Positions 10,404 through 24,986 of a stretch of DNA of 28,116 nucleotides are shown here, piece by piece (the stretch's first letter is position 1; every line of letters starts with the position of its first letter). The translations under genes were made by a program, and so were the position numbers. The stretch lies in the IMG/VR virus record IMGVR_UViG_3300017949_000043, positions 1 to 28,116 of that record; one strand, 5' to 3'. A model generated the notes under the pieces. The model saw only the letters and a list, made by a program, of their open reading frames with translations, was not told the DNA's origin and made no database searches. The stretch comes from a virus.

Positions 10404-10781
10404 TTAAACAATACCCTTCGATTGCTTCCACTCTTCATAAGATGGAAATCCGTCAGGTAAATACACTTCTTCAAGAATAAGATGACTGTTAAAGACACCT
10501 ATTTTCTTTCCATTGCTTATCCTTAATCCTCCCAACTTCAAGAAAGTCTTGTAGTCTTGATAATTAAAGGTGCATACAAATGGCTTGAACAATGGCTCTC
10601 CTGTTACCTCATCTACTCCAATCCTTCTAATTCTAACTTGAGCAATGTTTGGATTATCTCCCTTCTTTAAGATAGCATCCACTTTTACTTTTTCTACCTC
10701 GTTGTCGTTGTCATAGTTCTCTACAACTTCTTCAACAACTGGCTTTTCCGGTGATTGTTTTCTTGGTCTTCCTCTTCCCAT
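10404..10781 (-). CDS. Small unrecognised protein upstream of scaffold-like gene
   Basis: The 125-residue protein has a basic, AT-hook-like start (MGRGRPRKQSPEK), then an acidic low-complexity stretch (VVEEVVENYDNDNEVEKVKV), then a compact beta-rich domain ending EEVYLPDGFPSYEEWKQSKG. I do not recognise a family. It is the first gene after its own TAnnTTTG box at 10823-10830 and the palindrome at 10801-10819, so it probably starts the scaffold-capsid transcription unit. The GRGRPRK core resembles a minor-groove-binding AT-hook, so DNA contact is possible but unproven. Confidence 0.75.
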   Translation of the reverse strand: MGRGRPRKQSPEKPVVEEVVENYDNDNEVEKVKVDAILKKGDNPNIAQVRIRRIGVDEVTGEPLFKPFVCTFNYQDYKTFLKLGGLRISNGKKIGVFNSHLILEEVYLPDGFPSYEEWKQSKGIV

Positions 10782-10800
10782 AACTTTTTTATTAATTAAA

Positions 10801-10819
10801 TAGTGTAAATACTACACTA
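10801..10819. promoter_or_regulatory. Palindromic operator candidate, copy 1
   Basis: TAGTGTA-AATAC-TACACTA is a perfect 7-bp inverted repeat with a five-base spacer, a member of the GTGTA-N5-TACAC family found five times in this window. On the minus strand it starts three bases after the TAnnTTTG box at 10823-10830, so it would cover the transcription start point of the scaffold-capsid unit. That is a classic place for a repressor. Confidence 0.7.
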
Positions 10820-10822
10820 AGG

Positions 10823-10830
10823 CAAATATA
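10823..10830 (-). promoter_or_regulatory. Bacteroidetes -7 box (TATATTTG)
   Basis: The minus strand reads TATATTTG, an exact match to the TAnnTTTG -7 element of Bacteroidetes primary promoters. It lies 42 bases before the start of the 10404-10781 gene, in a short AT-rich gap after the portal gene. No clear TTTG -33 element was seen. The operator-like palindrome follows directly. Confidence 0.6.
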
Positions 10831-10855
10831 ATCACTTTAACACTATTTATAAAAA

Positions 10856-12547
10856 TTAATTAACTACAGGTAAATAGGTCTGAATCCTAGCTCTAATAGA
10901 CTCTATTAATTGCCTCATAGGTTGGTCTGACATACTGCCAAATACCTCAAGAGAACCATTCTCTCTTTCAAACCTAGATATCAAGGAACTGAAATTAATC
11001 TTCATATATGCCTCAGATTTATCTATAACACCCTCTTTCACCAAAGAAAGAACTTCATCCCTCTTAGAGTGTCTGAAAGGCTCTAATTCAAACATTATCT
11101 TAGCCCTACGGTAGCCTCTCGGATTATCCTTATGCTCTGCCTCCAAATACTTTTGATAAATACTATCCAAGATAGTTTCTGAGAATCCAGACCTCAAACC
11201 CTTATTATATGCCATAAGTAACACATCGGCACTAAATACATAATGCTTGGTACCATAGCTTACATAGTAGTGGTCAAAGGCATCTTGGTACCGTATCTTT
11301 AAGCAAGTGTTAATGACCCACTTCTCAATGTGTTCAAAATGCTTCTGTAGGGTGAGCAAGGTCTGTTCAGCACCATCGAATATAGACATGATCTGAGTCT
11401 CATTCATAGCCTCATAGTCTGAAGGATTATAAAGGTCATTGGTAATACCCTTATAAATCTCTTTTTCCAGATTCATTACATCCTCCCTAAGCATCTTAAT
11501 GCCTTTCACATCGGCATCCAACTTACCTACCGGAGCTTTAATTGCCGGTATGTCCTCTCCGTCAGGGAATGGAACGCTTATATATGTTCCTACACCAACC
11601 TTGTTGTTACAACTTGGACACTTTATCGGCTGACCAGCCTTTCTCAAGTAGGTGTCAGCAGTCTTATTCTTGAGATAACCCTCGTGGCACTCCGTATCGG
11701 CATCCTCGAAGGTACATTCTCCACTATATCCCCAATAGATAGGATATGCAGCATATAACTTAGCATACTTGGTATTAGTCTTCTCGAAAAGAAGGTCATC
11801 AAGCGAACCTAAGTACATACTTAGAGGTGAGTTTGCCGTCACGCAGTTACCCAGCTTATCGTTCCAAAACCAAGTCACAGGACACATACCAAGATTATGC
11901 TCCGTCTGTTCTGTAATATCTACTGCACCATTGGTTAGATTGAAAATACGGTACGATTCATCATCTATAATGCAATAGTTTTCCGCATCCTTCTTGTATA
12001 TCAAGTAATTAAAGTTGCCCCTTTCATCCTCATCGAACTCTATTATTTGACTTATATCAACATCATAAACAAATGGCTCTGGTCTAGTAGAGTCTTGCTC
12101 TTCCGGTAGACCAACAACCAATACTGAATTTATGGATGTCTTAAATAGCCGGTAAAAGTAATTTCTAAGCTCTTGAGGAAATCCGAACTGGTCTTCCAAG
12201 TATTGCAAAGCATCACCTTGCAAGTCTCCGGAGTCACTTCTGAATATAAGGCGATATATGGGATCTACGCCATCAAATACCTTTGCCAAACACCGATACA
12301 CCTCATCTACCGTCTTAGTGGTATCTAAGGGAAAGTCCATTAGCTTGATGAAGGTCTTTTGCTTATCCTCAGTCAAAAGGCTTCTCACTTTCTCCAAGAA
12401 GATTGCTAAATATCTTGGTGCTGAGTTCCTATTAACATTTTCGGTATGAAAAAGCAGTCGATCTTGTTGATCAACTGCCTCTCGTAAAAAGCGATTATTC
12501 TTCTTCTCCGCTAATATCTCCGATATCTGTTCCTTGAGTATTGGCAT
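10856..12547 (-). CDS. Portal protein
   Basis: A 563-residue protein of the size and layout of a phage portal, the dodecameric ring through which DNA is packed. The central part shows portal-type sequence such as YDVDISQIIEFDEDERGNFN and, near 350-400, helices with PVGKLDADVKGIKMLREDV and YKGITNDLYNPSDYEAMNET. A cysteine-rich insertion lies at about 275-320 (a C-x8-C pair followed later by CPSC and GVGTY), probably a small zinc ribbon; this insertion is a feature I associate with portals of Bacteroidetes phages. The ATG at 12545-12547 lies inside the preceding small gene (53-base overlap). High confidence from position near terminase and capsid plus layout. Confidence 0.85.
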   Translation of the reverse strand: MPILKEQISEILAEKKNNRFLREAVDQQDRLLFHTENVNRNSAPRYLAIFLEKVRSLLTEDKQKTFIKLMDFPLDTTKTVDEVYRCLAKVFDGVDPIYRLIFRSDSGDLQGDALQYLEDQFGFPQELRNYFYRLFKTSINSVLVVGLPEEQDSTRPEPFVYDVDISQIIEFDEDERGNFNYLIYKKDAENYCIIDDESYRIFNLTNGAVDITEQTEHNLGMCPVTWFWNDKLGNCVTANSPLSMYLGSLDDLLFEKTNTKYAKLYAAYPIYWGYSGECTFEDADTECHEGYLKNKTADTYLRKAGQPIKCPSCNNKVGVGTYISVPFPDGEDIPAIKAPVGKLDADVKGIKMLREDVMNLEKEIYKGITNDLYNPSDYEAMNETQIMSIFDGAEQTLLTLQKHFEHIEKWVINTCLKIRYQDAFDHYYVSYGTKHYVFSADVLLMAYNKGLRSGFSETILDSIYQKYLEAEHKDNPRGYRRAKIMFELEPFRHSKRDEVLSLVKEGVIDKSEAYMKINFSSLISRFERENGSLEVFGSMSDQPMRQLIESIRARIQTYLPVVN

Positions 12548-12683
12548 CCTTTACTTCAATAGGTTCTGACTGCCATCCAGGCTTTGATAAAAGATAGTCT
12601 CTCTGCCTACCATCCTTAAACTCTCTACCCTCAGGAGCAATAACCTCGTGATATAATATGTGATTCTTCTTAGTTCTAGGCAT
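12495..12683 (-). CDS. Small unrecognised protein before portal
   Basis: A 62-residue hydrophilic protein, basic at the start (MPRTKKNHILYHEV) and very acidic at the end (TQGTDIGDISGEEE). It begins nine bases after the stop of the 12693-13361 gene, and its 3' end overlaps the portal gene by 53 bases in another frame, so the two are likely coupled. No family recognised. The long overlap leaves some doubt whether it is translated, but ATG start, spacing and composition are gene-like. Confidence 0.6.
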   Translation of the reverse strand: MPRTKKNHILYHEVIAPEGREFKDGRQRDYLLSKPGWQSEPIEVKDANTQGTDIGDISGEEE

Positions 12684-12692
12684 TTTGCTCTA

Positions 12693-13361
12693 TTATAGGT
12701 CTGTTACAGGGTTAAATGTACCAGCCGGAGAAAATGCGTAGAGAAGATTACTGTAATCCTCCTCTAAAGAGAATCTAACCATATTTTTATCAATACCATC
12801 TCTCTGACCCATCATCTTATCACCAACGTGCCAAGACTGAATAGGGAATCCTCTGAAGGTAGTAGGAGATGACTGAGAATCTACAATACCAGAAATCTGA
12901 CCTCCTTCGTGTACGAAGAAAGCACTTAGGTTGCCATCCTCACAAGAGTAAGTCTTTAGAACAGTAATCAACTGCTGATTTACTCTCAAGAACTCACCAT
13001 TAACTTGCACGAACTCAGAACCTCTAACGATTGGAATACCACCCTTAGTAGCATTTCCTCCACCGTACTCTCTAGGCTCTCCACCACTCATTTCTACGGC
13101 ATGGATTATTGGAGTAGGGATAAACTTCGTTGCATCTGCAGTATCTGATGTAGTACCGGTATAGACATTCCAAAACGTAATTGTTGTTGGATCATCAGTA
13201 TCATCACCAGCATCATCATTGGCATCAAAAGCATATACTGAGCCAGAAGGATTCTTAGTTCTGTGAAGAATTAATTTTACAGGAACACCCAAGTCCTCAA
13301 GACAAGCACTTGGAAGGGATGTCATTTGATCTGCCAAAGGACAAGCGCATACTAAACTCAT
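12693..13361 (-). CDS. Tail tube or head decoration protein (putative)
   Basis: A 222-residue protein with an odd cysteine-containing start (MSLVCACPLADQM, CLEDLGVPVKLILHR) and a beta-rich body with GFPIQSWHVGDKMMGQR and a surface-like acidic loop (DANDDAGDDTDDPTT). It stands alone behind its own terminator, -7 box and palindrome and has the same leader layout as the capsid gene, which points to an abundant virion protein. No other candidate for a major tail tube protein lies between the neck genes and the tape measure, so this may be the tube subunit placed in front of the portal. A decoration or head protein is the main alternative. Confidence 0.8.
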   Translation of the reverse strand: MSLVCACPLADQMTSLPSACLEDLGVPVKLILHRTKNPSGSVYAFDANDDAGDDTDDPTTITFWNVYTGTTSDTADATKFIPTPIIHAVEMSGGEPREYGGGNATKGGIPIVRGSEFVQVNGEFLRVNQQLITVLKTYSCEDGNLSAFFVHEGGQISGIVDSQSSPTTFRGFPIQSWHVGDKMMGQRDGIDKNMVRFSLEEDYSNLLYAFSPAGTFNPVTDL

Positions 13362-13394
13362 TTCTAAAAGTTTTTATTTCTTAAAAAAAGTTCA

Positions 13395-13405
13395 GCGACT
13401 TGCTC
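13395..13405 (-). promoter_or_regulatory. Shared leader element GAGCAAGTCGC
   Basis: In transcript sense this reads GAGCAAGTCGC and lies about 44 bases before the ATG of the 12693-13361 gene. The same 11 bases occur within the 31-bp repeat at 22024-22054, with one change in the repeat at 22364-22394, about 51 bases before the next ATG in both cases. A degenerate form is in the capsid leader. It could be an RNA element or the start of a short upstream peptide (VTKEQVAELFL here). Confidence 0.4.
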
Positions 13406-13420
13406 CTTCGTCACTAATTA

Positions 13421-13435
13421 GTGTACTTAATACAC
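13421..13435. promoter_or_regulatory. Palindromic operator candidate, copy 2
   Basis: GTGTA-CTTAA-TACAC, a perfect 5-bp inverted repeat with five-base spacer, matches the family seen at 10801, 18041, 18064 and 20412. It lies 18 bases downstream of the TATCTTTG box at 13453-13460 on the minus strand, inside the early transcribed leader of the 12693-13361 gene, where a bound protein could block elongation or initiation. Confidence 0.65.
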
Positions 13436-13452
13436 CAAATAAATTATCATGT

Positions 13453-13460
13453 CAAAGATA
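13453..13460 (-). promoter_or_regulatory. Bacteroidetes -7 box (TATCTTTG)
   Basis: The minus strand reads TATCTTTG, an exact TAnnTTTG match, in the gap between the terminator at 13484-13516 and the 12693-13361 gene. It is placed to start a new transcript just after the upstream one ends. A weaker second candidate (TTTATTTG, 13436-13443) touches the palindrome directly. Confidence 0.6.
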
Positions 13461-13483
13461 GTAAATAATAAAGTAGTTATAAA

Positions 13484-13516
13484 ATAAAAAAAAAGAGACA
13501 TCGGGGAGATGCCTCT
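13484..13516 (-). terminator. Intrinsic terminator
   Basis: In minus-strand RNA, AGAGGCAUC pairs with GAUGUCUCU (13508-13516 with 13494-13502, one G-U pair) across a five-base loop and is followed by a long U-rich run (13485-13493). It ends transcription from the 13575-13970 gene and isolates the next transcription unit. Confidence 0.75.
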
Positions 13517-13574
13517 AAAATCGTATTCACTAACAAAAAAAAACTACAACATGAATTACAATACTAAGGATTTT

Positions 13575-13970
13575 TTATCGCCTTGTCAATCTTATGTGTT
13601 CTAATTTTTTTCTTTTGTTTTCTATTTGCCTCTCCATATTGGCAATTTCGTTTTTTAGTAGGCATATCTTATCTAGCACACATTGATCGGACAAGTCTTT
13701 AATCACATCTGACAACCTAGAACCCTCATTTAAGCAGAAGGCAGTAGTTCCGCTAGAATTTAGGCATAAAATCTTATATGATGACGTACATCCTATAGGA
13801 AACAACGTAATACCGCCATTAAAGTCTACAGCTACCGTAAGTCCCCACTCAGAAACAAAATGAGCCATCTCTTTCTCTATACCAGAAATGCTGCCTATAC
13901 CACTCAAACCCTCGTAGTGCTTCTTCACCTTCTTAATCAAAGAACCTACCGTTATGTCTATAAAAATCAT
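13575..13970 (-). CDS. Unrecognised small protein between large terminase and tail-tube-like gene
   Basis: A 131-residue protein with N-terminal MIFIDITVGSLIKKVKKHYE, a central segment with LFPIGCTSSYKILCLNSSG, and a C-terminal coiled coil (ICLLKNEIANMERQIENK). It has its own -7 box (13990-13997) and a terminator after it, so it is a single-gene unit. No family recognised. The central segment could be a small beta domain and the coiled coil suggests oligomerisation. Confidence 0.75.
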   Translation of the reverse strand: MIFIDITVGSLIKKVKKHYEGLSGIGSISGIEKEMAHFVSEWGLTVAVDFNGGITLFPIGCTSSYKILCLNSSGTTAFCLNEGSRLSDVIKDLSDQCVLDKICLLKNEIANMERQIENKRKKLEHIRLTRR

Positions 13971-13989
13971 TGCAGTTATTGTGTTTTTA

Positions 13990-13997
13990 CAAAATTA
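13990..13997 (-). promoter_or_regulatory. Bacteroidetes -7 box (TAATTTTG)
   Basis: The minus strand reads TAATTTTG, an exact TAnnTTTG match, 20 bases before the ATG at 13968-13970. It would give a very short leader for the 13575-13970 gene. It lies in the 113-base gap after the large terminase gene. Confidence 0.5.
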
Positions 13998-14057
13998 TCA
14001 TTAATTTAACAGAATTATTAACCCTGTGGGTTTAAAAAGTGTTCAAATAATCGAAAC

Positions 14058-14085
14058 GCCTTTCATAAAGATGAGAGGCTTTTTT
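14058..14085 (+). terminator. Terminator-like hairpin, better on the plus strand
   Basis: On the plus strand GCCTTTCAT (14058-14066), loop AAAG, and ATGAGAGGC (14071-14079) form a 9-bp stem with one U-G pair, followed by six T residues. On the minus strand the same stem has a C-A mismatch and no U-tract after it. It overlaps the stop codon of the large terminase gene. A plus-strand transcript ending here would be antisense to the 13575-13970 gene; no plus-strand promoter was identified. Confidence 0.55.
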
Positions 14086-15307
14086 AATTAAAGAACTTCA
14101 GACCTAGTTTTCTTCTTTTACTTAGTTCATTAAAAGCATACCTCATAGCATCCATAAGGTGATTGTAATCATCAATAGGAATACTAGACTTCTTATCATT
14201 CCAATGGTATAGCCTCAATTCCCTCTTTATTTCATTCGAGTTATAATCAACTACTAGGTGATAATCCTGGAGAGCGGTAATCTCTTCTTTTACCTTACCC
14301 TTTTTAGCTAACTTAACATTCAAGCCATGACTCTTTAGCTCAGCAACAGTCTTCTTATCGTGGTCACAAGCAATAAGATCGGTCATCCTATCTATGCTCC
14401 TAGTCACCTTTCTCTTTATCTCATCATTGCTCAGCTCGGTTTCATATATCTTCTCTTGGAGGTACACTTTTTTATTCTTATGATCTACGGCAACCTTGAT
14501 AAAGGCTAGAGGGTCTGGATAATACCCAAAGTCAAGCCCATAGCAGTATGGTAAGTTATTGTCAAAGTGTCCTTCCACCCAATTCTTAAAAACAGCACCT
14601 TCGTCATTCTCTCTCCATCCACCAAGCATAACCTTGTGGTACTTGTCAGGATGGTCTTCCCTCAATCTGTCTACTTGGTTAAGGAAACTGGGAGATAAGT
14701 TATCTAAGTTGTCCATATAGGTCGTATGGATATGCAATACCTCCGGATGGGTAGAAATAGGTACTTTATAGCCATCTACATACTCATACTTCATCGACTT
14801 CTCGAAAAACCTCTTCCATATCCAATGCTCAATGGTGGTAGGGTTTAAGATTAGGACAACCAAGTTCCTAGCATGGGCAGAACGGATAGAGTAATCGACT
14901 TTATCGAAGATGTCCTCCTCTACAAGCTCTTCGGCTTCCTCTACAATCCATACAGAAACACCTTTTAGTGACTTTAGATTGGCAGTAAGGTTTCCAGAAG
15001 AGGACTTTATACCCCTAAACAGGATGTCAGAACCGGTCTGTAGGTTCTCTATCTGATTCTTCCTTACTTGAAAATCTTTTTCAACCTTGAGAAGCTCAAG
15101 TTTTTCCTCAAATTCGGGGATAATGGATATTTCAGCAGATACGAGGGTATAACGGGAATAAAGAATACGGTTTTTCTTCTCATAAGTTATTAAATTGGCT
15201 ATAGTTGAAATGGCAAAAGACTTACCTGAGCCACGACCACCGGTAATGATGACGTACCTCTTGTCGGTAGTTAAAATCTGCTTGTATTTAGGGTTTAACT
15301 CTACCAA
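14084..15307 (-). CDS. terL: Terminase large subunit
   Basis: The ATP-driven motor and nuclease that cuts and packages phage DNA. The 407-residue protein has Walker A GGRGSGKS (23-30), Walker B WIVEEAEE (120-127) and the RNase-H-like nuclease core: D259 in YGLDFGYYPDP, D315 in ACDHDKK and D386 in YNHLMDAMRYA. The layout fits the PBSX-type family. The only available start is a TTG at 15305-15307; an in-frame stop lies just upstream and the N-terminus ELNPKYKQILTTDKRYV is complete for the family. That TTG lies inside a TATCTTTG sequence that also matches the -7 consensus. A DNA methyltransferase gene separates it from the small-subunit candidate. Confidence 0.95.
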   Translation of the reverse strand: MVELNPKYKQILTTDKRYVIITGGRGSGKSFAISTIANLITYEKKNRILYSRYTLVSAEISIIPEFEEKLELLKVEKDFQVRKNQIENLQTGSDILFRGIKSSSGNLTANLKSLKGVSVWIVEEAEELVEEDIFDKVDYSIRSAHARNLVVLILNPTTIEHWIWKRFFEKSMKYEYVDGYKVPISTHPEVLHIHTTYMDNLDNLSPSFLNQVDRLREDHPDKYHKVMLGGWRENDEGAVFKNWVEGHFDNNLPYCYGLDFGYYPDPLAFIKVAVDHKNKKVYLQEKIYETELSNDEIKRKVTRSIDRMTDLIACDHDKKTVAELKSHGLNVKLAKKGKVKEEITALQDYHLVVDYNSNEIKRELRLYHWNDKKSSIPIDDYNHLMDAMRYAFNELSKRRKLGLKFFN

Positions 15308-15337
15308 AGATAATTAGTTGATATGTCAATTATTATT

Positions 15338-16045
15338 CTAAAATAGCTCAACTTGCGACTTTTGACACTCAATTCTTTTATTAGCTAAATCACAATAACC
15401 TTTAGATATCTCACAACCCAAGTAAGTTCTTTTTTCCTTAATGGCAGCTAATGCTGTTGTACCGCTTCCCATGTAGGGGTCAAATATCAATTCAGCGTCA
15501 GGAAAGCAAAGAATAAGTCTTCTAACTAATTTTAAAGGAAACGCCCTCTTGTGGTCTTTACTTGTTCCCTCTGGGGTATCTTGTATTAAGTCGTGTTGAT
15601 TTATAGTATTAATAAAATTCGTGTTCGTGCCTTTTGATAACCAATAAATTCGTTCTGTCATTGGATAAAACCTGCACTTATCAAAGTTTTGTGAACGATT
15701 AAACCAAACCAATTCTTGCTTTAATGTCCACTTCGTCTTCAATAGCCACTCGTAGGGCGTTATTTGCTTTTTATCCCTAATTCTGTTTTTATGGTTATAC
15801 ATTATGCTCCCGCCCTGCCTTGTTACTCTATAAATTTCATCTAAAACCCTTATTTGCTGAGACTGATATTCATATTCATCCATTTCATCGATGTATTCAT
15901 CGTAAGCCGAAAAAATCTTACCACCAGTATGATGTTTTGCTCCTAAGTTGTAGGGAGGAGAGGTTATGGTTAAATCAATAACCTCGTCATTAATTTGACC
16001 AAGAAAATTTAAACAGTCAGTGTTTTTTATCGTATTTACTTGCAC
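15338..16045 (-). CDS. DNA methyltransferase, N6-adenine/N4-cytosine type
   Basis: A 235-residue amino-methyltransferase. Motif IV TSPPYNLG (28-35) comes first and motif I FDPYMGSGTTALAA (about 189-202) comes near the C-terminus, the beta-class order. The region between is short, with a small target-recognition part. It would methylate an exocyclic amino group on phage DNA, most likely to protect it from host restriction. It starts with GTG at 16043-16045. No restriction enzyme gene is nearby, so it is a solitary enzyme. It lies between the two terminase genes, an accessory insertion in the packaging operon. The base methylated (A or C) cannot be read from the sequence. Confidence 0.9.
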   Translation of the reverse strand: MQVNTIKNTDCLNFLGQINDEVIDLTITSPPYNLGAKHHTGGKIFSAYDEYIDEMDEYEYQSQQIRVLDEIYRVTRQGGSIMYNHKNRIRDKKQITPYEWLLKTKWTLKQELVWFNRSQNFDKCRFYPMTERIYWLSKGTNTNFINTINQHDLIQDTPEGTSKDHKRAFPLKLVRRLILCFPDAELIFDPYMGSGTTALAAIKEKRTYLGCEISKGYCDLANKRIECQKSQVELF

Positions 16046-16081
16046 TATATTAGTATTAAACCAATGAAATTCACAAATGGC

Positions 16082-16573
16082 TCATTCTTCTTCAATCTCC
16101 GCATCATCAAACTTGTCTCCCTTAATCTTCTTTCTCAAAGCCTCTGGGTCAGCAAAGTTGATAGCTGGAATATTAACCTTATGCTCAACGGTAGAGGTAG
16201 AAACGGCAGTAGCTTTGTCGGCAAACATCTCTATGATGTCTTTGACTTTCTTGTAAGATCCCCACTTGATAGCTTCATCGAAGCACCTAGCAGCTACTTT
16301 CTCCAGGGCAGTACAAGTTTCATCTTTGAGAACCCTCACAAGCTCATCTTCGGTCATACAAGCCACTATAGCGAAGGTATCTCTGACCTCTTGCTTGGAA
16401 TACTTGCCATCTTTACTCAACTTGGTCAGTAGCTTCCTAGAGCCAGTAGGCGCACCAACATTAGGGTTTTCACCAACATGGATGATAGAATTTCGACCCA
16501 TCTCTTTGATCTGCTCAACCCTCTGCTTAGTGAGTCCCCTACGGTAATTTTTATTTTTGCGATTATCGGACAT
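16082..16573 (-). CDS. Terminase small subunit (putative)
   Basis: A 163-residue, charged, mostly helical protein. The start is basic (MSDNRKNKNYRRGLTKQRVE), followed by NVGAPTGSRKLLTKLSKDGKY, a helical core with ACMTEDELVRVLKDETCTAL and KWGSYKKVKDIIEMFADKA, and an acidic tail (DDAEIEEE). Small terminases bind the packaging start site and form rings. The call rests on its place upstream of the large terminase, with the methyltransferase gene between, and on the helical oligomer-like texture. It overlaps the upstream membrane protein gene by 11 bases. Confidence 0.7.
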   Translation of the reverse strand: MSDNRKNKNYRRGLTKQRVEQIKEMGRNSIIHVGENPNVGAPTGSRKLLTKLSKDGKYSKQEVRDTFAIVACMTEDELVRVLKDETCTALEKVAARCFDEAIKWGSYKKVKDIIEMFADKATAVSTSTVEHKVNIPAINFADPEALRKKIKGDKFDDAEIEEE

Positions 16574-16775
16574 TCTTCGATAGTAAGTAAGTTAAAAAGT
16601 TGCCTAAAAGCTGAAAGAACACGCCTAAAACAACAATACCAACGACAAAAAGAGTAAGTACGTCAAGAATGCTAATAGAACTAATCTGAAAAGCAGATAT
16701 ATGCCCACAAAGAACATACAAGGCAATAATAAACCACGCCACAAGGAAGGTGGTATTCCAAGGGAATTTATCCAT
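16563..16775 (-). CDS. Small two-segment membrane protein, holin-like
   Basis: A 70-residue protein with two clear membrane helices, about 9-26 (TFLVAWFIIALYVLCGHI) and 36-57 (ILDVLTLFVVGIVVLGVFFQ), and a short basic tail (LLSKNVR). This size and layout are those of class II holins, which open the inner membrane to end infection. No endolysin gene is in the window to support that, so the role is inferred. It is the first gene after a terminator and a -7 box and overlaps the small-terminase candidate by 11 bases. A second hydrophobic frame overlaps it but needs a TTG start. Confidence 0.65.
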   Translation of the reverse strand: MDKFPWNTTFLVAWFIIALYVLCGHISAFQISSISILDVLTLFVVGIVVLGVFFQLLGNFLTYLLSKNVR

Positions 16776-16843
16776 AACTTAATTTTTTGGTAGATTGATA
16801 AAATAGAAACATAAATCAGTATAAACATTGACTTAATCATATA

Positions 16844-16851
16844 CAAAGATA
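16844..16851 (-). promoter_or_regulatory. Bacteroidetes -7 box (TATCTTTG)
   Basis: The minus strand reads TATCTTTG, an exact TAnnTTTG match, directly after the U-tract of the terminator at 16853-16885 and 69 bases before the ATG of the membrane protein gene. It is well placed to start the packaging (late) transcript. Confidence 0.6.
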
Positions 16852-16852
16852 T

Positions 16853-16885
16853 AAAAAAAAGCCCAAGAACTTAATCTAGGGCTTT
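16853..16885 (-). terminator. Intrinsic terminator
   Basis: In minus-strand RNA AAAGCCC (16879-16885) pairs with GGGCUUU (16858-16864), followed by a run of U residues down to 16853. It ends the transcript of the 17004-17362 genes before the packaging unit begins. Confidence 0.75.
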
Positions 16886-16915
16886 CATAAATAAAATCAA
16901 TGCATAAACTATTTC

Positions 16916-16960
16916 TTAATAAGATTTTTTCTTACCTCCGGTGTACATACACTTTTTCAT
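16916..16960 (-). CDS. Possible 14-residue peptide
   Basis: A tiny frame, MKKCMYTGGKKKSY, lies between the 17004-17186 gene and the terminator. It begins with ATG and is basic with a central GG. Short MKK/GG/KK-rich peptides recur in Bacteroidetes phages in my general experience, but nothing in the sequence proves translation. The start is preceded by ATCTTATAGAT, not a clear leader. Low confidence. Confidence 0.25.
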   Translation of the reverse strand: MKKCMYTGGKKKSY

Positions 16961-17003
16961 ATCTATAAGATTTTAATGATCAAAATCCTAAGATACAAAA
17001 AAT

Positions 17004-17186
17004 CTATAAATTATGCTTAAACAAGTTGAAAATGGCAAAAGCAACAAAGAAGATGGAGAACAAACATATGGCTGATACAAACATCAATTCCCTCCAATCT
17101 ATCTTAGGCTCATCAGAATCATACTCATGCAATCCGGAGTAAGTAGGTACTTGCGTAATGTCGGTGTTTTTGTCAGTTCTTTCCAT
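17004..17186 (-). CDS. Small single-pass membrane protein
   Basis: A 60-residue protein with a hydrophilic N-terminus (MERTDKNTDITQVPTYSGL) and one C-terminal membrane helix, about 33-54 (LMFVSAICLFSIFFVAFAIF), ending NLFKHNL. The layout suggests a C-tail-anchored protein with the N-terminal part in the cytoplasm. Its ATG shares one base with the stop of the upstream gene (TAATG), so it is coupled to it. Function unknown; lysis helper or membrane-based exclusion are possible. Confidence 0.65.
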   Translation of the reverse strand: MERTDKNTDITQVPTYSGLHEYDSDEPKIDWRELMFVSAICLFSIFFVAFAIFNLFKHNL

Positions 17187-17362
17187 TATTCTTCTTCCGT
17201 TATGTGATGACCAGGTTCTCTATTCCTAGCAATCAAAACAATAGAGTCGCTAAGCATCTCCAAAGCATTGTCCAACTCATCAACACCATCAAAGTCCAAC
17301 TCGAAATGGATAGGTGTGCCAAACTCATCTTCTATGACAATCTTTAATCTACCCTCATTCAT
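17186..17362 (-). CDS. Small unrecognised acidic protein
   Basis: A 58-residue protein, MNEGRLKIVIEDEFGTPIHF followed by a helical acidic part (DGVDELDNALEMLSDSIVLI) and REPGHHITEEE. I chose the ATG at 17360-17362; a TTG six bases upstream is possible but less likely. It is the first gene after the long control region 17370-18360 and is coupled to the membrane protein gene that follows. No family recognised. Confidence 0.65.
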   Translation of the reverse strand: MNEGRLKIVIEDEFGTPIHFELDFDGVDELDNALEMLSDSIVLIARNREPGHHITEEE

Positions 17363-17454
17363 GCTCAATAACTTTATCCCAAAACTACAAATTCCAATCC
17401 AAATTCCCTACCCCAAACACATACTTTTTTAATCTAACTAGGTGTATAGCTGAG

Positions 17455-17580
17455 CTAACATAATATATTATAGTACTATAATATAGTAATATTACAGTAA
17501 TAGTAACATTACAGTAACTATGTAACAGTACTATTACAGTTATTGTACTATAACTTGTACTATAACTTATACTTTAAATA
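17455..17580. repeat. AT-rich repeat cluster with AGTA/TACT cores
   Basis: This stretch is almost only A, T and the core AGTA/TACT. It holds a perfect 14-bp palindrome TTATAGTACTATAA (17468-17481), three ATTACAGTAA-like 10-mers (17491-17500, 17508-17517, 17533-17542) and a 12-bp tandem repeat TTGTACTATAAC (17543-17566). Such clusters occur at replication origins and at multi-site regulator targets. It lies in the gene-free region, 93 bases upstream of the 17186-17362 gene. Confidence 0.65.
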
Positions 17581-17613
17581 AAAAAAACTAAAGGAAAAAA
17601 AAGAAAACTCAGT

Positions 17614-17643
17614 AAAAGGGGGCTTCATAGCCATCCCCCTTTT
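17614..17643. terminator. Symmetric hairpin, possible bidirectional terminator
   Basis: AAAAGGGGG (17614-17622) and CCCCCTTTT (17635-17643) form a perfect 9-bp stem with a 12-base loop. Because A-runs and T-runs flank the GC core on both sides, it could end transcripts in either direction. It lies inside the gene-free control region. Confidence 0.55.
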
Positions 17644-18040
17644 ATACCACAAGACTAAACCAGCAACCCCCTGCCTAGTAGACTCGCCAAGCCTCGTCAA
17701 CTAATTTCTCATAAAACATGAAGACAAAGAACTTACGGATTGTAAGTCTTTGGCAGAATGTAAGCAACCAAAATCAACAAATGCAATCCATAACATATCC
17801 GTAAAATGCCTCAGAATGCCTCTAATTTGCTCTCTAAGAGACTTTCTCCTAAAAATGGTAGTTATACCCCACTTTTTAATTTAAAGCTCTTAAATCAAAC
17901 GAGAGAGGCTCAGATGTAAACATTGGTCATATCCCAACAACCTAAAATCAAGCCAAAAACTCTAATCCCCTATGAAATTTTGAAAATTTGAAGGGGAGGG
18001 TAAGGTAGGCGGCATTTCCGGCACCATAGGGGGGGGGTAA
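17644..18040. other. Gene-free stretch with a hairpin and G-runs
   Basis: I find no convincing gene here on either strand. A hairpin with an 11-bp stem and one bulged A (17725-17752, CAAAGAACTTAC / GTAAGTCTTTG) sits inside a possible 28-codon plus-strand frame that starts at 17719. GAGGCATT occurs twice near 17806-17822 (minus sense). Plus-strand G-runs (GGGGAGGG at about 17993-18000, then nine G at 18029-18037) could form a quadruplex. The stretch probably serves control or replication functions with the repeats beside it. Confidence 0.4.
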
Positions 18041-18078
18041 GTGTATGATCTACACTAAGCATAGTGTAAGGAATACAC
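18041..18078. promoter_or_regulatory. Tandem palindromic operator candidates, copies 3 and 4
   Basis: GTGTA-TGATC-TACAC (18041-18055) and GTGTA-AGGAA-TACAC (18064-18078) lie 23 bases apart, start to start, about two helical turns, so bound proteins would sit on roughly the same face. Copy 3 shares GATCTACACTAAGC exactly with copy 5 at 20412. They lie in the gene-free region between the terminators at 18269-18397 and the 17186-17362 gene. Confidence 0.7.
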
Positions 18079-18097
18079 GAACTCAGCCGTTTATACT

Positions 18098-18135
18098 TTG
18101 GGCATTGGGCAGAATACATTGGGCATTGGGCAGAA
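18098..18135. repeat. TTGGGCATTGGGCAGAA direct repeat, two copies
   Basis: A 17-bp unit occurs at 18098-18114 and 18119-18135; each holds two TTGGGCA cores, so there are four in 38 bases. The related core TGGGCA also occurs four times at 20504-20577. In both places the repeats lie just to the right (higher coordinate) of a GTGTA-N5-TACAC palindrome. Confidence 0.7.
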
Positions 18136-18268
18136 GATAGGCTAAAATCCTTTCTAAGGCTATTTTAAGCCTCTCTGAGCCACGATCTATGCTCAGCAAG
18201 GGTAAGATACCACACACCTGGAGAACGTGGCTTAAATCGGCTCTAATTGGCTTATGGGGTATGGATGC

Positions 18269-18303
18269 AAAAAAGCACCTCACATCAATATGTAAAGTGC
18301 TTT
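18269..18303 (-). terminator. Second intrinsic terminator after the AT-rich cassette
   Basis: In minus-strand RNA AAAGCAC (18297-18303) pairs with GUGCUUU (18272-18278), followed by further U residues to 18269. It is a backup to the stronger terminator at 18364-18397. Together they stop cassette transcripts before the control region. Confidence 0.6.
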
Positions 18304-18363
18304 AAAATTGGTTAGGGAAAAACAGGGCAAAAGGAACACCCCCTCAGCCCTAAATAATAAGCA

Positions 18364-18397
18364 TAAAAAAAGCCCTACAACGTCAGTTGTAAGGCTT
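18364..18397 (-). terminator. Strong intrinsic terminator of the AT-rich cassette
   Basis: In minus-strand RNA AAGCCUUACAAC (18386-18397) pairs along 12 bp with GUUGUAGGGCUU (18370-18381, one U-G pair) across a four-base loop, then a U-run to 18364. It follows the 18418-18681 gene by about 20 bases and is one of the clearest terminators in the window. Confidence 0.85.
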
Positions 18398-18417
18398 AAT
18401 GTATCCGGTGCAATTAG

Positions 18418-18681
18418 TTATATGATACGGTGCTTTATAAAGTCTTTAAATTGTGTAGGCTTTAATTCCATGGGGCTACTATCCGTATATTTCAGTTGTA
18501 AAGTATCTTTATTGTAAACGTATATAAGTTGTAACCATGTGTCAAAGGCTTTAATCTTATATAAATTGGTTGATGTTGTTATATGTAGTTGATACCAATT
18601 ATCTTTATTTTGTAACCTTATCTTATTAATTACATTTGATAATTCATGTTGTTGATCGGGTTGAATATTATAAGTTTTCAT
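18418..18681 (-). CDS. Unrecognised small protein, last gene of AT-rich cassette
   Basis: An 87-residue protein, MKTYNIQPDQQHELSNVINK, with a polar, beta-rich body (NWYQLHITTSTNLYKIKAFD) and a basic end (FKDFIKHRII). It has no cysteines or membrane segment. It is the last gene before the strong terminator and has an A-rich leader (AATCAAAAACTAATAAACATG). Family unknown. Its codons are AT-rich like those of the other cassette genes. Confidence 0.65.
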   Translation of the reverse strand: MKTYNIQPDQQHELSNVINKIRLQNKDNWYQLHITTSTNLYKIKAFDTWLQLIYVYNKDTLQLKYTDSSPMELKPTQFKDFIKHRII

Positions 18682-18700
18682 GTTTATTAGTTTTTGATTG

Positions 18701-18913
18701 TTATTTAATAGTTATCCGCTCAATTTCAATGATGTTTCTACTATTAAGCGGGTCAAAGAAAGTTACAAAATCATTGTATTTTAACAACCTTTGATACTTA
18801 CGATAGTTTAGTGAATGTATCCGGCAAAGTTTAGCCAATGTAGTATAGTAGCTTTTTTCATTTTGTAGCGTTCCACATTTGGAACTAATTTTAAATTTGT
18901 ATGCTATTCTCAT
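18701..18913 (-). CDS. Small unrecognised basic protein of AT-rich cassette
   Basis: A 70-residue basic protein, MRIAYKFKISSKCGTLQNEK, followed by a helical segment LAKLCRIHSLNYRKYQRLLK that could be a helix-turn-helix-like DNA-binding unit. It ends ENI-like beta sequence (RNIIEIERITIK). Its ATG overlaps the end of the larger upstream gene by four bases (ATGA), so the two are co-translated. The DNA-binding idea is weak and rests only on charge and helix pattern. Confidence 0.65.
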   Translation of the reverse strand: MRIAYKFKISSKCGTLQNEKSYYTTLAKLCRIHSLNYRKYQRLLKYNDFVTFFDPLNSRNIIEIERITIK

Positions 18914-19755
18914 AATTCTAGTTTTAGTAATTTTTCCCCAATTTCGTGCATGTCAATTTTATTAATATTGTGGCACCCAATTTTTAAAGTGCCGTTTATT
19001 CCAATTACGGTAAAATTGTCAATTTTATAGCCTTTAATATCTTTGCCGGATTTGATTAATTTATATAATATTTTGGCTTCTTTAATGTCAACCTTTGCAC
19101 CCATGCTAGTCTCAATATTATTTGCGTTTATTCGCAAATATTGTTCATTGCTTCTAAAATATCCTTTCTCAAAAGATTTAAATTTTTTGATGTTGTCTTT
19201 TAATTCTTTTGCTTCTTTAATTGCCTTTCTTTCTTTTGCTATTCTTTCGGCTTTTAAAACTTTTATTCTAGCATGAGTTAACTTTTCTTGAAAGTTATCG
19301 GAATTAATTTCATTTATAAGCCTTTTTATATATTTATATTCTTTTGATCTTTTTACTTTTAAATTCCTATATTCTAGATATTCATTAACGCAATTCCACA
19401 AATATTCAATTTCATCAGAATAGATATATGGCTTTCTAGCTTTTATAAGTTTTGGATATAAATAATTCTTTATATGGCTATAAACATATTTTAACTCATG
19501 TTTAGTGACAAAAAATTGCTTATAATGTCCTGTAGCTTGAATAACTAAATTTATGTGTTTTCCGGTTGAAACTGAATAGCCTACATCATTTATTAATATG
19601 GTATTATTGTCAATAAATTCAGCCATCAAATAATGATACCCATATGAATATATTTTATCATTATAAAAAAATATGGATCCGCTTTTGCCATGTGTGTTAT
19701 TCCTTTGTGCGTATTCGTGTACGCAATCCCAATTTGATTTAAATACGTGTCTCAT
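18910..19755 (-). CDS. Phage/plasmid protein with IYSYGYHY motif (DUF8033-like)
   Basis: A 281-residue protein and the main gene of the AT-rich cassette. The N-terminal region has the pattern S.IFFYNDKIYSYGYHYLMA (about 27-45), which resembles a small domain of unknown function recurring in phage and plasmid proteins (IYSYGxH(F/Y)xxA). The middle is long, basic and helical (ARIKVLKAERIAKERKAIKE), probably coiled coil. The C-terminus, about 215-280, is a compact beta region with NFTVIGINGTLKIGCHNINK. Composition suggests nucleic acid contact. The function is unknown. The domain name is from memory of the motif, not from a search. Confidence 0.75.
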   Translation of the reverse strand: MRHVFKSNWDCVHEYAQRNNTHGKSGSIFFYNDKIYSYGYHYLMAEFIDNNTILINDVGYSVSTGKHINLVIQATGHYKQFFVTKHELKYVYSHIKNYLYPKLIKARKPYIYSDEIEYLWNCVNEYLEYRNLKVKRSKEYKYIKRLINEINSDNFQEKLTHARIKVLKAERIAKERKAIKEAKELKDNIKKFKSFEKGYFRSNEQYLRINANNIETSMGAKVDIKEAKILYKLIKSGKDIKGYKIDNFTVIGINGTLKIGCHNINKIDMHEIGEKLLKLEL

Positions 19756-19796
19756 TGTTATAGTTTTTTTTAGTTAATTCTTTTGAATAAATGATA

Positions 19797-20003
19797 TTAT
19801 TTTACTTTGTAATACCATTGATTATTTTTAATCCAATCTTTCCAATCATTCTGCGTGAAATATTCGCAATCCTCAAATTCTTGACGATTAAGCCTAAGAG
19901 TTCTAAACTTTAGATAACATTTACCATAATCGAAATATCTAATAGTGAAAGTTTTTTTACTATGGTTTGGAGTTGCCTTAATTTGTATCCTTTCATTTTT
20001 CAT
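19797..20003 (-). CDS. Small unrecognised protein of AT-rich cassette
   Basis: A 68-residue protein, MKNERIQIKATPNHSKKTFT, beta-rich first half and an acidic-aromatic second half (DCEYFTQNDWKDWIKNNQWY). Leader TTAACTAAAAAAAAATTACAACAATG matches the A-rich start pattern used across this phage and is nearly the same as that of the 18910-19755 gene. No family recognised. Confidence 0.65.
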   Translation of the reverse strand: MKNERIQIKATPNHSKKTFTIRYFDYGKCYLKFRTLRLNRQEFEDCEYFTQNDWKDWIKNNQWYYKVK

Positions 20004-20039
20004 TGTTGTAATTTTTTTTTAGTTAAGTAATTAATTTGA

Positions 20040-20147
20040 TTAATAAGGTAAATAATAAGGAGCGAAAAAATTAAAAGCTAGGATCATAAAACATGCAAAT
20101 AGGCTTAAGGTAATAAGGGACAAAAAAGCAATTTTAAAAGTTTTCAT
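20040..20147 (-). CDS. 35-residue hydrophobic peptide
   Basis: A short frame from ATG at 20145-20147 encodes MKTFKIAFLSLITLSLFACF and ends in FFAPYYLPY. It is one hydrophobic helix with a basic start, so it is a small membrane or signal-like peptide; LFAC could act as a lipobox but little would remain after processing. It is the first frame after the -7 box at 20176-20183 and opens the cassette. Length keeps confidence moderate. Confidence 0.5.
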   Translation of the reverse strand: MKTFKIAFLSLITLSLFACFMILAFNFFAPYYLPY

Positions 20148-20175
20148 GTTAATAGTTTTTATTATTGAAATAATG

Positions 20176-20183
20176 AATACAAA
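20176..20183 (-). promoter_or_regulatory. Bacteroidetes -7 box (TATATTTG) of the AT-rich cassette
   Basis: The minus strand reads TATATTTG, an exact TAnnTTTG match, 29 bases before the 35-residue peptide. The transcript would run through the 20040, 19797, 18910, 18701 and 18418 genes to the terminator at 18397-18364. The sequence from 20184 to 20411 holds only AT-rich non-coding DNA with two GTACTTTTT repeats. Confidence 0.55.
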
Positions 20184-20410
20184 AGCAAATATAAAAAGCC
20201 TTTTATCAATTTAAAGCGTTTTGTACTTTTTTTTTATCAAATAAGTACTTTTTATATCATATTACAAATTATCGTAATGCGTTAAAGCATTGATATACTT
20301 ATCTTTATAGGACTGATTTATGAGAAATACCATATTTGTGGTGAATTTCATATATAGATTTTTGCAATATGTTTTAATATTGATCAGCATAATTGCACCC
20401 AATTATAGAT

Positions 20411-20431
20411 AGTGTAAGATCTACACTAAGC
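20411..20431. promoter_or_regulatory. Palindromic operator candidate, copy 5
   Basis: AGTGTA-AGATC-TACACT is a 6-bp inverted repeat with a five-base spacer; the core GTGTA-N5-TACAC is at 20412-20426. Together with the flank (GATCTACACTAAGC) it repeats the 18041 copy. It lies about 230 bases upstream of the AT-rich cassette promoter, in a gene-free gap. Confidence 0.65.
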
Positions 20432-20503
20432 CAGGAGCAAATCCGCCACAGATCCGGCAACTACTTTTTACCAAATCGGTAATGTATCAAAAATGAAACC
20501 CCC

Positions 20504-20577
20504 TTTGGGCAAAACCCCTCTGGGCAAAAATCTGAATCTCGCTCTGGGCAAAATTCTCAATCTCCCTCTGGGCAAAA
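20504..20577. repeat. TCTGGGCAAAA repeat, four copies
   Basis: Copies at 20504-20514 (TTTGGGCAAAA), 20519-20529, 20543-20553 and 20567-20577 are nearly identical, with spacings of 15, 24 and 24 bases. They end two bases before the stop codon of the 20579-20839 gene. The TGGGCA core is shared with the repeats at 18098-18135. The regular spacing suggests an iteron-like protein-binding array, perhaps for replication or partition. Confidence 0.65.
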
Positions 20578-20578
20578 A

Positions 20579-20839
20579 TTAAATTTCAAACTTCTGCCAC
20601 ATCTCTCGCAGCTTTTTTTCGATGATTGGCAGTAGGACTGCATAGTGAGCTATGAAGACCAGATAGAGCTCTTCTCTCGTCTTCCAGTCTTTAGAGGCTG
20701 CATTGCGGTAGCTGACCTCAGATGCGTAGCCATGGATCTCTTTCATTATGCTTTGCTCCGATACGCCAAGCTCTTTTATGATCCTCTTGAAATGGATGTA
20801 GATGTCTTGATCTCCTTTGTAATTTTTAGGGATTTCCAT
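20579..20839 (-). CDS. Unrecognised small helical protein
   Basis: An 86-residue helical protein. The segment IHFKRIIKELGVSEQSIMKE (about 14-33) resembles a helix-turn-helix (ELGVSEQSI), and the C-terminus is a helix with VLLPIIEKKLREMWQKFEI. A small DNA-binding regulator is possible; this makes it one candidate, not a proven one, for the protein that binds the nearby repeats. Its ATG shares one base with the stop of the upstream gene. Confidence 0.65.
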   Translation of the reverse strand: MEIPKNYKGDQDIYIHFKRIIKELGVSEQSIMKEIHGYASEVSYRNAASKDWKTREELYLVFIAHYAVLLPIIEKKLREMWQKFEI

Positions 20840-22929: not shown

Positions 22930-24169
22930 ATTTTCTGTTTTTAAAAGTTAATTTAATCATTCCGGTATCTCCCATCCTATGCTTGGGAATTAAAAGTTCG
23001 GTAAAATCATCCTCTTTAGCAACATCAACATAATACCCTTCTCTGTATAAGAATAATACTATGTCCGCATCTTGCTCTATAGCTCCACTCTCCCTGAGAT
23101 CAGAAAGCATAGGTCTTTTATTCTCTCTCCTCTCAAGGTATCTTGACAACTGGCTCAAGCATATAATAGGTATGTTGCAATTAGCCTTATGAGCAGTCAG
23201 CTTCAGCATCCTAGACATATACTCCACCTCTCCTTGCTTACTATTGAATCCCGACCTTTGCGAACTCATCAACTGAAGATAGTCAATAACCACCAAGCCT
23301 ACGCCATACTTCCGTACAGAGAACTTTATGGAATTGACAATATCCTCAACGGTTATCTTATCATCATATATGAAGATAGGTAATTTATTGATGTGCTCAA
23401 GAGCTTTTTCTATCTCCCTTATTTCCTCGCTATTCAACGACCCAGTCCTCATATATTGTGTGCTGATGCCTGTTTTTATCTCTACCATACACATAAGGAG
23501 CTGATCGGAACTCATCTCCAAGCTATAGATGGCACTAGGAACGCCACTCTCTGCACTCGCCAATAACTGATTAAGGCTAAAGGTAGTCTTACCCATTCCT
23601 GGTCTAGCCCCAAGAATTATCAAATCTGAATTCTGCCATCCACCGGTAAGAGAATTTAACTTAGGAATACCGCTTGATACACCACTCATCCCCTTATGTT
23701 CCGTAGAGGCATAAATGGAGTCCATAAAATCCTTAGTCATAGCTCCAACGTGGTAATCCTTCTTGTCGGAATCCTCATAAAAGGAATCTAAGCCACTAAG
23801 AGCCAAAGAAATTATCTTCTCCGGAGCATCGCCACTCAAAATGCCATCAGAGATCGTTGAATTTATCTCGTAGAGCTTGGTTTTCATATATGCCTCTATA
23901 ATGCCATCCTCATACTTTTTAAAGTTTTTGGTGACACAAGCATACATATAATCATCCTTGAGTTTCTCAAAACTGATTTTAAAGCGTTCTAAGGCGATAT
24001 CTGACACCAAGCTAAGGTCAATATCATCTTGGTCGTAGATATGCTCTGAAATCGCCTCAAAAAGCCCTCTATGGGCATTATTTGAAAAGTGCTGAGGTCT
24101 GATTCTGGAATCGTATATTAAACTAGGCTTTCTGAGTAGGCATCCTATGAGCGATTTTTCTAAGTTCAT
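22922..24169 (-). CDS. dnaB: Replicative DNA helicase (DnaB-like)
   Basis: This helicase would form a ring at the phage replication fork and unwind DNA with ATP. The 415-residue protein has the DnaB N-terminal helical domain (starts MNLEKSLIGCLLRKPSLI), Walker A GARPGMGKTTF (187-197), Walker B VVIDYLQLM (293-301) and the family block SQLSRYLERRENKRPMLSDL, followed by RESGAIEQDADIVLFLYREG. It ends slightly early (KHRMGDTGMIKLTFKNRKYE) but is complete for a phage version. Its ATG overlaps the initiator-like gene by four bases, so helicase and probable loader are made together. High confidence. Confidence 0.95.
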   Translation of the reverse strand: MNLEKSLIGCLLRKPSLIYDSRIRPQHFSNNAHRGLFEAISEHIYDQDDIDLSLVSDIALERFKISFEKLKDDYMYACVTKNFKKYEDGIIEAYMKTKLYEINSTISDGILSGDAPEKIISLALSGLDSFYEDSDKKDYHVGAMTKDFMDSIYASTEHKGMSGVSSGIPKLNSLTGGWQNSDLIILGARPGMGKTTFSLNQLLASAESGVPSAIYSLEMSSDQLLMCMVEIKTGISTQYMRTGSLNSEEIREIEKALEHINKLPIFIYDDKITVEDIVNSIKFSVRKYGVGLVVIDYLQLMSSQRSGFNSKQGEVEYMSRMLKLTAHKANCNIPIICLSQLSRYLERRENKRPMLSDLRESGAIEQDADIVLFLYREGYYVDVAKEDDFTELLIPKHRMGDTGMIKLTFKNRKYE

Positions 24170-24786
24170 AGTTCTCTATACGTCTTAGTTTGTTTCTCTA
24201 GTGAATTATCCAACTTTGCCTCTCTGATAAACAATCCTTGCCATCCATTAGCCTCAGATGAGTCTACGGCAGTCTTTAAATCGACATAAGAATTTGCAAG
24301 GAACTTGTCCACCAAGTTTCTAGCGGTAGACTTTATCTTAATAGGCTTTTTTAACTCTTGGCGGTAATTTACCCACTTTAAGAGTAGTTCTTTCTTCTCT
24401 ATAGATAACTTATCCGTTAAACCTTCAAAGGCTTTAGGGAACACCAGAGAGTCTTCTACCGGCTCATCTTCTTGAGCCACAACACCGAATCCTGGAATGG
24501 GCAAATTCTTATGCTTTAAAAGAACAATAGTCCTTCCAATAATTTCACCCCTCTCCTTACGGATCTCACTACGGATATATCCCTTATTCTTCAAATTGGT
24601 GACTATCTGAGACACCCTACCCTTAGTAAAACCAAAGTAGTCACTAAAGTAAGCATTGGACTGGCGTACTGCACCCTCCCTATTTAAACTCATTACCTTA
24701 GAGTAAAACAATATCTCCATAAAAGTCAGGTTGGTATCATCCCACACCTCTGCCGGTATCCACAACCCTAAATCATCATGTATCAT
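24166..24786 (-). CDS. Winged-helix replication initiator / helicase-loader-like protein
   Basis: A 206-residue protein. Residues about 40-80 form a winged helix (NAYFSDYFGFTKGRVSQIVT, NLKNKGYIRSEIRKERG), preceded by LWIPAEVWDDTNLTFMEILF, a start typical of phage replisome organisers. The C-terminal region (KPIKIKSTARNLVDKF and SSEANGWQGLFI) resembles DnaD/DnaT-like loaders that place the helicase on the origin. It is translated with the helicase through an ATGA overlap. The role is inferred from this pairing and the motif pattern. Confidence 0.85.
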   Translation of the reverse strand: MIHDDLGLWIPAEVWDDTNLTFMEILFYSKVMSLNREGAVRQSNAYFSDYFGFTKGRVSQIVTNLKNKGYIRSEIRKERGEIIGRTIVLLKHKNLPIPGFGVVAQEDEPVEDSLVFPKAFEGLTDKLSIEKKELLLKWVNYRQELKKPIKIKSTARNLVDKFLANSYVDLKTAVDSSEANGWQGLFIREAKLDNSLEKQTKTYREL

Positions 24787-24986
24787 ATTTCGTTGATTTT
24801 TTTAAGTAATCTAAAGAACTCATCATCTTCAGCCTCTTGCCTCTTCGCCTCTTGGAGATCAAACTTGATGAGCATTCTCTTTTCTTCGTCTGACAAGTCA
24901 AACCACCCATCTACATTGAGAAGCTCCCTAAGTGAGAACTTCTGCAATGCAATAGGTTTTCCATCCTTAAATATAATGTCTGCCAT
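24783..24986 (-). CDS. Unrecognised small acidic protein
   Basis: A 67-residue protein, MADIIFKDGKPIALQKFSLR, then ELLNVDGWFDLSDEEKRMLI and a charged C-terminal helix (EAKRQEAEDDEFFRLLKKI). It overlaps the initiator gene by four bases and shares one base with the SSB-like gene, so it lies within the replication operon. It may be an adaptor of the replisome, but no family is recognised. Confidence 0.7.
   Translation of the reverse strand: MADIIFKDGKPIALQKFSLRELLNVDGWFDLSDEEKRMLIKFDLQEAKRQEAEDDEFFRLLKKINEI

Follow-up and report, generated by a model that had tools for sequence, protein, structure and literature searches.

A conserved family of palindromic, probable operators at phage virion-gene promoters and its resemblance to NrtR/AraR sites

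In Bacteroides thetaiotaomicron, the oligonucleotides described for AraR, a regulator of the NrtR family, carry AGTGTATTTGATACACC together with another site 24 bp further on, and the motif is a 21-bp one with tandem sites (PMC4666351). In cluster A mycobacteriophages, a phage repressor reads stoperators, asymmetric 13-bp sites that lie mostly in one orientation and are dispersed in many copies across each genome (PMC6550527). How virulent-type Bacteroidota phages control transcription has hardly been studied, and our literature search gave no relevant paper and no report in phages of the motif described here. The subject of this analysis is the palindrome GTGTA-N5-TACAC, of which five exact copies occur in the IMG/VR viral record IMGVR_UViG_3300017949_000043 (G000; 28,116 nucleotides, hereafter the window), a phage genome fragment whose better-known relatives measure 43-48 kb. 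The sites, each of them symmetric, are as follows.

10800..10820 (core 10803-10817), no strand: operator copy 1, exact core, just downstream of the head/capsid operon promoter
13418..13438 (core 13421-13435), no strand: operator copy 2, in the leader of the tail-tube gene
18038..18058 (core 18041-18055), no strand: operator copy 3, exact core
18061..18081 (core 18064-18078), no strand: operator copy 4, exact core
20409..20429 (core 20412-20426), no strand: operator copy 5, exact core

A dinucleotide model predicts 0.013 copies of the pattern in the window against the five observed (Poisson probability ~3e-12), and among 5-bp inverted repeats with gaps of 0-20, a search space of ~2e4 motifs, it is the most over-represented; copies with one mismatch are absent from the window. 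All five copies are intergenic, in a window of which intergenic DNA makes up 11.7% (P ~2e-5); the small mechanical open reading frames that overlap copies 3 and 4 are not conserved. An earlier interpretation made from the letters alone (the sequence-only reading) had reported the five-copy pattern, its occurrence far above chance and its restriction to DNA between genes, and in all these respects it was right, with the motif nowhere scattered inside genes of the window; copy 1 alone had been placed one base off, at 10802-10816.

All five sites are retained in a relative, contig IMGVR_UViG_3300010318_000086 (L125, genome G070), which is 97.8% identical to the window over the structural genes and ~90% over the early regions, and every one of them fits TAGTGTA-N5-TACACTA exactly there. 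The entire 74-bp intergenic stretch holding copy 1 is identical in the two phages. Elsewhere the arms are intact while the spacers have changed, from TGATC to CAATG in copy 3 and by a single base in copy 5, and in copies 2 and 4 the outer bases have shifted in L125 toward the full palindrome TTAGTGTA-N5-TACACTAA, which copy 2 matches perfectly there. The spacing of copies 3 and 4 is 23 bp in the window and 24 bp in L125. Arms that stay constant, spacers that vary freely and outer bases that come closer to symmetry are, as judged from this comparison, the signature of a DNA site bound by a dimer; a recombination site was also considered and was rejected, the spacers not being conserved. Conservation of position holds in this close relative and fails at greater distance: 79 contigs with a related portal protein (1.13 Mb) contain zero copies, which implies that the site is not part of the structural module and is lineage specific, not a trait of that phage type. 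Overall, conservation with drifting spacers, exclusively intergenic placement, association with the promoters of two structural genes and the presence of the site in further phages give good support to the proposal of the sequence-only reading that these are operators for one regulator, and we regard the regulon as very probably genuine.

The placement of copies 1 and 2 involves the following features.

10823..10830, minus strand: TATATTTG, a Bacteroidota-type -7 box 5 bp before copy 1
10404..10781, minus strand: gene for a 125-aa protein of no assigned function, the first after copy 1, heading the head/capsid genes 9482-10387 and 8370-9413
13453..13460, minus strand: TATCTTTG, a -7 box 17 bp before copy 2
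13494..13516, minus strand: intrinsic terminator just upstream of the tail-tube promoter
12693..13361, minus strand: tail-tube (major tail) protein gene, the first gene after copy 2, assigned by fold match

Few TAnnTTTG boxes occur in intergenic DNA on the coding strand, and two of them precede copies 1 and 2, as had been noticed from the letters (with a distance of 18 bp for copy 2). Because an intrinsic terminator lies directly upstream of its promoter, the tail-tube unit starts anew, and with terminator, promoter, operator and tail-tube gene in succession it appears to be a separately controlled unit. A dimer bound downstream of a -7 box would be expected to repress rather than activate, and the tail-tube and capsid units are probably repressed through these sites. 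The tail-tube assignment, which the sequence-only reading had put forward as a likeness, agrees with the predicted fold of the protein. Among the best structural matches of a model built from 36 sequences (pLDDT 80) are the phage T1 tail tube and further proteins of the tail-tube or head-to-tail kind, with E-values of 5e-4 to 8e-4; TM-scores are only ~0.4, yet almost every match is of the same sort. By the same fold evidence the PHROG label "major head protein" (phrog_8193) on this product looks wrong, and it may be wrong on related records too. Copies 3 to 5 lie in two noncoding regions.

17369..18417, no strand: noncoding region of ~1 kb that holds copies 3 and 4 and separates the early genes from the TerS/TerL unit
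20148..20578, no strand: noncoding region with copy 5, an AT-rich stretch and CTCTGGGCAAAA repeats

Control of the scaffold-capsid unit, the tail-tube gene and a control region had been proposed; the first two agree with copies 1 and 2 at the head/capsid and tail-tube promoters, and "control region" fits the surroundings of copies 3 to 5, although these copies have no promoter box nearby.

The site recurs in other phages. In a viral collection TTAGTGTA-N5-TACACTAA is found in 68 contigs, against 18 for the same arms with an N6 gap, and lone matches to this 14-base pattern are mostly due to chance. One group (L007, L009, L046, L055, L070, L107 and others) carries the site where the terminase and early operons diverge, in some cases with another copy close to the beginning of the adjacent operon; what it shares with the window is limited to distant TerL, DnaB, methyltransferase, phrog_7247-like and SSB-like proteins. 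Another (L231, L254, L214, L274) has two to four tandem copies with a period of 22-25 bp at a comparable early/terminase boundary. These contigs were found through the motif, so that their flanks are biased by selection, whereas those of the window and L125 are not. When 73 regions upstream of tail-tube genes were tested, a palindrome recurring in the same contig was seen only in L125 and L179, and in none of the control regions. L179, a B40-8-like phage (1112-7505), has six copies of GTTAA-N6-TTAAC, of which one lies upstream of the tail-tube gene, another precedes the terminase genes and two are between divergent genes. This equal architecture with a different palindrome in a related phage supports, by analogy, the regulon interpretation and suggests that operators are exchanged between phages.

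Tandem pairs of the motif also occur in bacterial genomes, in 110 stretches, far more than chance by a rough estimate, and the proteins encoded near them are of three kinds: NrtR Nudix regulators at 21 loci, TetR-type regulators at 25 loci, and initiators of plasmid or phage replication. Since the core is common to NrtR, TetR-type, Rep_3 and O-like binders, it is not diagnostic by itself. The share of half-sites with WWA before GTGTA is 0.89 in the window and L125, 0.87 beside NrtR genes, 0.67 for Bacteroidota NrtR, 0.13 beside TetR-type genes and 0.03 in the arrays of O genes, bearing in mind that the tandem search demanded one T after the first copy and so raised the last flank base equally in all classes that it supplied; by these figures it is the flanks that separate binder classes sharing a core. 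Nine exact sites, against an expected 0.03, occur around 39 Bacteroidota NrtR genes, and four of the nine lie between, or next to, nrtR and pfkA in divergent orientation. Such an arrangement, with the operator between the two genes, is present at L439, L450, L459 and L460 and may point to control of glycolysis by NrtR. NrtR_WHD is encoded by 34 of 118 sampled Bacteroidota genomes. A few viral contigs encode it as well, two of them with exact sites near the gene, but neither NrtR_WHD nor a NUDIX domain was found in the window or the 36 other site-bearing records (0/37), and a phage-encoded NrtR was rejected as the reader.

The sites of the window match the NrtR operator class in having a 21-bp palindrome with WWA flanks and a tandem spacing close to the 24 bp of AraR, and with no such gene in the phage records the host's own repressor would be the most likely reader. 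We tentatively favor a host NrtR-type repressor as the best single proposal, at a confidence somewhat short of even. The five sites would be 21-bp operators, WWAGTGTA-N5-TACACTWW, of one dimeric repressor, with the two arms of each operator in consecutive major grooves. On copies 1 and 2, a bound dimer would lie over, or just past, the point where transcription of the capsid and tail-tube units begins and block initiation or elongation until released, and at the tandem copies 3 and 4 and at copy 5, in noncoding control DNA, it might bind cooperatively, loop to the promoters or be titrated as phage DNA multiplies. The repressor would be a Nudix-related winged-helix protein of the NrtR/AraR family, tying late genes to a host metabolic signal, for which ADP-ribose/NAD (NrtR) and arabinose (AraR) are candidates. 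That a phage with no recognized repressor of its own has handed control of its capsid and tail-tube operons to a host repressor of the NrtR family, making virion output answer a host signal such as ADP-ribose from NAD breakdown, is possible but, taken as a whole, doubtful.

Several observations weigh against a host NrtR-type reader. TetR-type regulators, Rep_3 plasmid initiators and O-like initiators also use GTGTA-N5-TACAC, so that identity of motif is no proof of family; 31 of the 39 sampled NrtR loci lack an exact site, and 84 of the 118 sampled genomes lack NrtR_WHD. No promoter box occurs within 75 bp of copies 3 to 5. The window is a 28-kb fragment, and a phage regulator could sit in the missing part. 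The neighbors of the sites are virion and early phage genes, not the NAD, sugar or glycolysis genes typical of NrtR/AraR operators.

Just as probable in our estimate is a regulator encoded by the phage, in the part of the genome outside the contig, whose operator would resemble that of NrtR through convergence and which would keep the late units off in a lysogen or at an early stage of infection. The relatives with exact sites are, like the window, mostly fragments, and the six GTTAA-N6-TTAAC sites of L179 indicate that operator and regulator may change together. Yet the near-complete G023 (37.6 kb) has the site and no recognized repressor or integrase, and neither was recognized in the 28-kb fragment. 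No protein family is shared more widely among the site-bearing records than the stand-alone DnaA-domain-IV proteins, which 19 of 37 have as opposed to 1 of 40 relatives without the site, but 66 loci of more distant phages encoding such proteins hold one site in 857 kb, where 0.47 are expected by chance, and the window and G070, both fragments, have no such gene (Bac_DnaA_C). On these two grounds, chance-level frequency at the distant loci and absence from the window, this protein was rejected as the binder. G023 is one of many site-bearing phages with a DnaA-domain-IV-like protein, which in some has a coiled-coil-like C-terminal stretch. The sequence-only reading had nominated a gene of the window itself:

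20579..20839, minus strand: gene for an 86-aa protein proposed as the regulator, a role that is unsupported

Its product gave only a sub-threshold Pfam hit, no significant fold match and no helix-turn-helix family. No DNA-binding family was found for the other small proteins of the window, nor for the product of 18910-19755 (phrog_7247), whose gene is common to the window and the L007-type phages at the site.

It is improbable that the sites are iterons of a replication initiator, with the noncoding regions as origins. The protein concerned would be the following.

24166..24786, minus strand: lambda-O-like replication initiator, considered as the binder and disfavored

Arrays of GTGTA-N5-TACAC do lie inside O-like initiator genes in the L036, L277 and L278 groups and beside Rep_3 genes in Hymenobacter plasmids, and copies 3 to 5 lie in repeat- and AT-rich DNA. 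Against this, the WWA flank is missing from the O-gene arrays, copies 1 and 2 stand at promoters of structural genes, and the window has no array within or next to its initiator gene, the sites being spread across ~10 kb with none within 24100-24850. The initiator gene of G023 has its own iterons (GGTAAAGAAACTTTACC, three copies), and L007, L070 and L107 combine different initiator N-termini with the same site; these two facts disfavor the O-like initiator as the binder. The three iterons of G023 lie 22-23 bp apart within its O-like gene (L436:13715-13776). Elsewhere, in L036, L277, L278, L281, L285 and related viral loci, the tandem arrays in O-like genes encode a repeated peptide and are likely lambda-type origins, and L366 and L379 (Hymenobacter) have plasmid-like iterons, GTGTAGTCGATACAC, with a 22-bp period adjoining a probable Rep_3 initiator gene.

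Very improbable is a decoy function, in which the phage DNA copies soak up a host NrtR-type repressor and thereby open host metabolic genes; the match to the host NrtR operator class and the distance of copies 3 to 5 from any promoter box would suit it, but copies 1 and 2 are positioned as working operators and there are merely five sites per genome. For copies 3 to 5 specifically, replication or titration roles rival that of an operator. Action of the palindromes in RNA, as leader hairpins that stabilize mRNA or bind a protein, is hardly to be credited either and was rejected, since copies 1 and 2 would be in leaders and able to fold but the arms are invariant while the spacers vary, compensatory changes are absent, copy 1 has unremarkable predicted stability (z -1.0), copies 3 to 5 have no known transcript and Rfam gave no match.

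Nearly all genes of the window are on the minus strand, and its virion genes, including those for the portal and tape-measure proteins, match PHROG families. Its portal and tail-tube proteins share ~30-33% identity with their counterparts in B40-8/P2559S-type phages of Bacteroides, Parabacteroides, Alistipes and Croceibacter.

10856..12547, minus strand: portal protein gene (B40-8/P2559S type), from sequence matches

The CTCTGGGCAAAA repeats near copy 5 occupy 20495-20578, and ATAGTAATATTACAGTA-type repeats occur at 17450-17570 in the region of copies 3 and 4, where the relative has lost one unit. Palindromes of other kinds were seen in other contigs: nine dispersed GTGTACTCARTACAC sites with a conserved spacer, regulon-like, in the 60-kb G118 (contig of L322), three AAACAAT-N-ATTGTTT palindromes upstream of a putative terminase small subunit gene (L209:5838-6272) and six copies of CAGCTG-N9-CAGCTG in a 29.5-kb fecal phage contig (L126, MT835637).

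The result is a concrete, testable set of late-gene operators, linked to a class of host regulators that sense sugar or NAD status. Lambda-type origin iterons in the O-like genes of other phages share the core with these sites and are likewise tandem palindromes, with a 22-24 bp period, but the sites of the window lie outside the initiator gene, have different flanks and are found at promoters. The stoperators of cluster A mycobacteriophages resemble them as dispersed sites for one regulator across a phage genome, and differ in their asymmetry, shared orientation, number and dedicated phage repressor (PMC6550527), there being five symmetric sites here and no repressor found. Compared with the AraR/NrtR operators of Bacteroides (PMC4666351), the sites are phage-borne and stand at virion-protein promoters in records with no NrtR gene; they have in common with those operators the 21-bp palindrome with its GTGTA-N5-TACAC core, A/T-rich outer bases, a tandem spacing of ~24 bp, a promoter-proximal position and an association with Bacteroidota.

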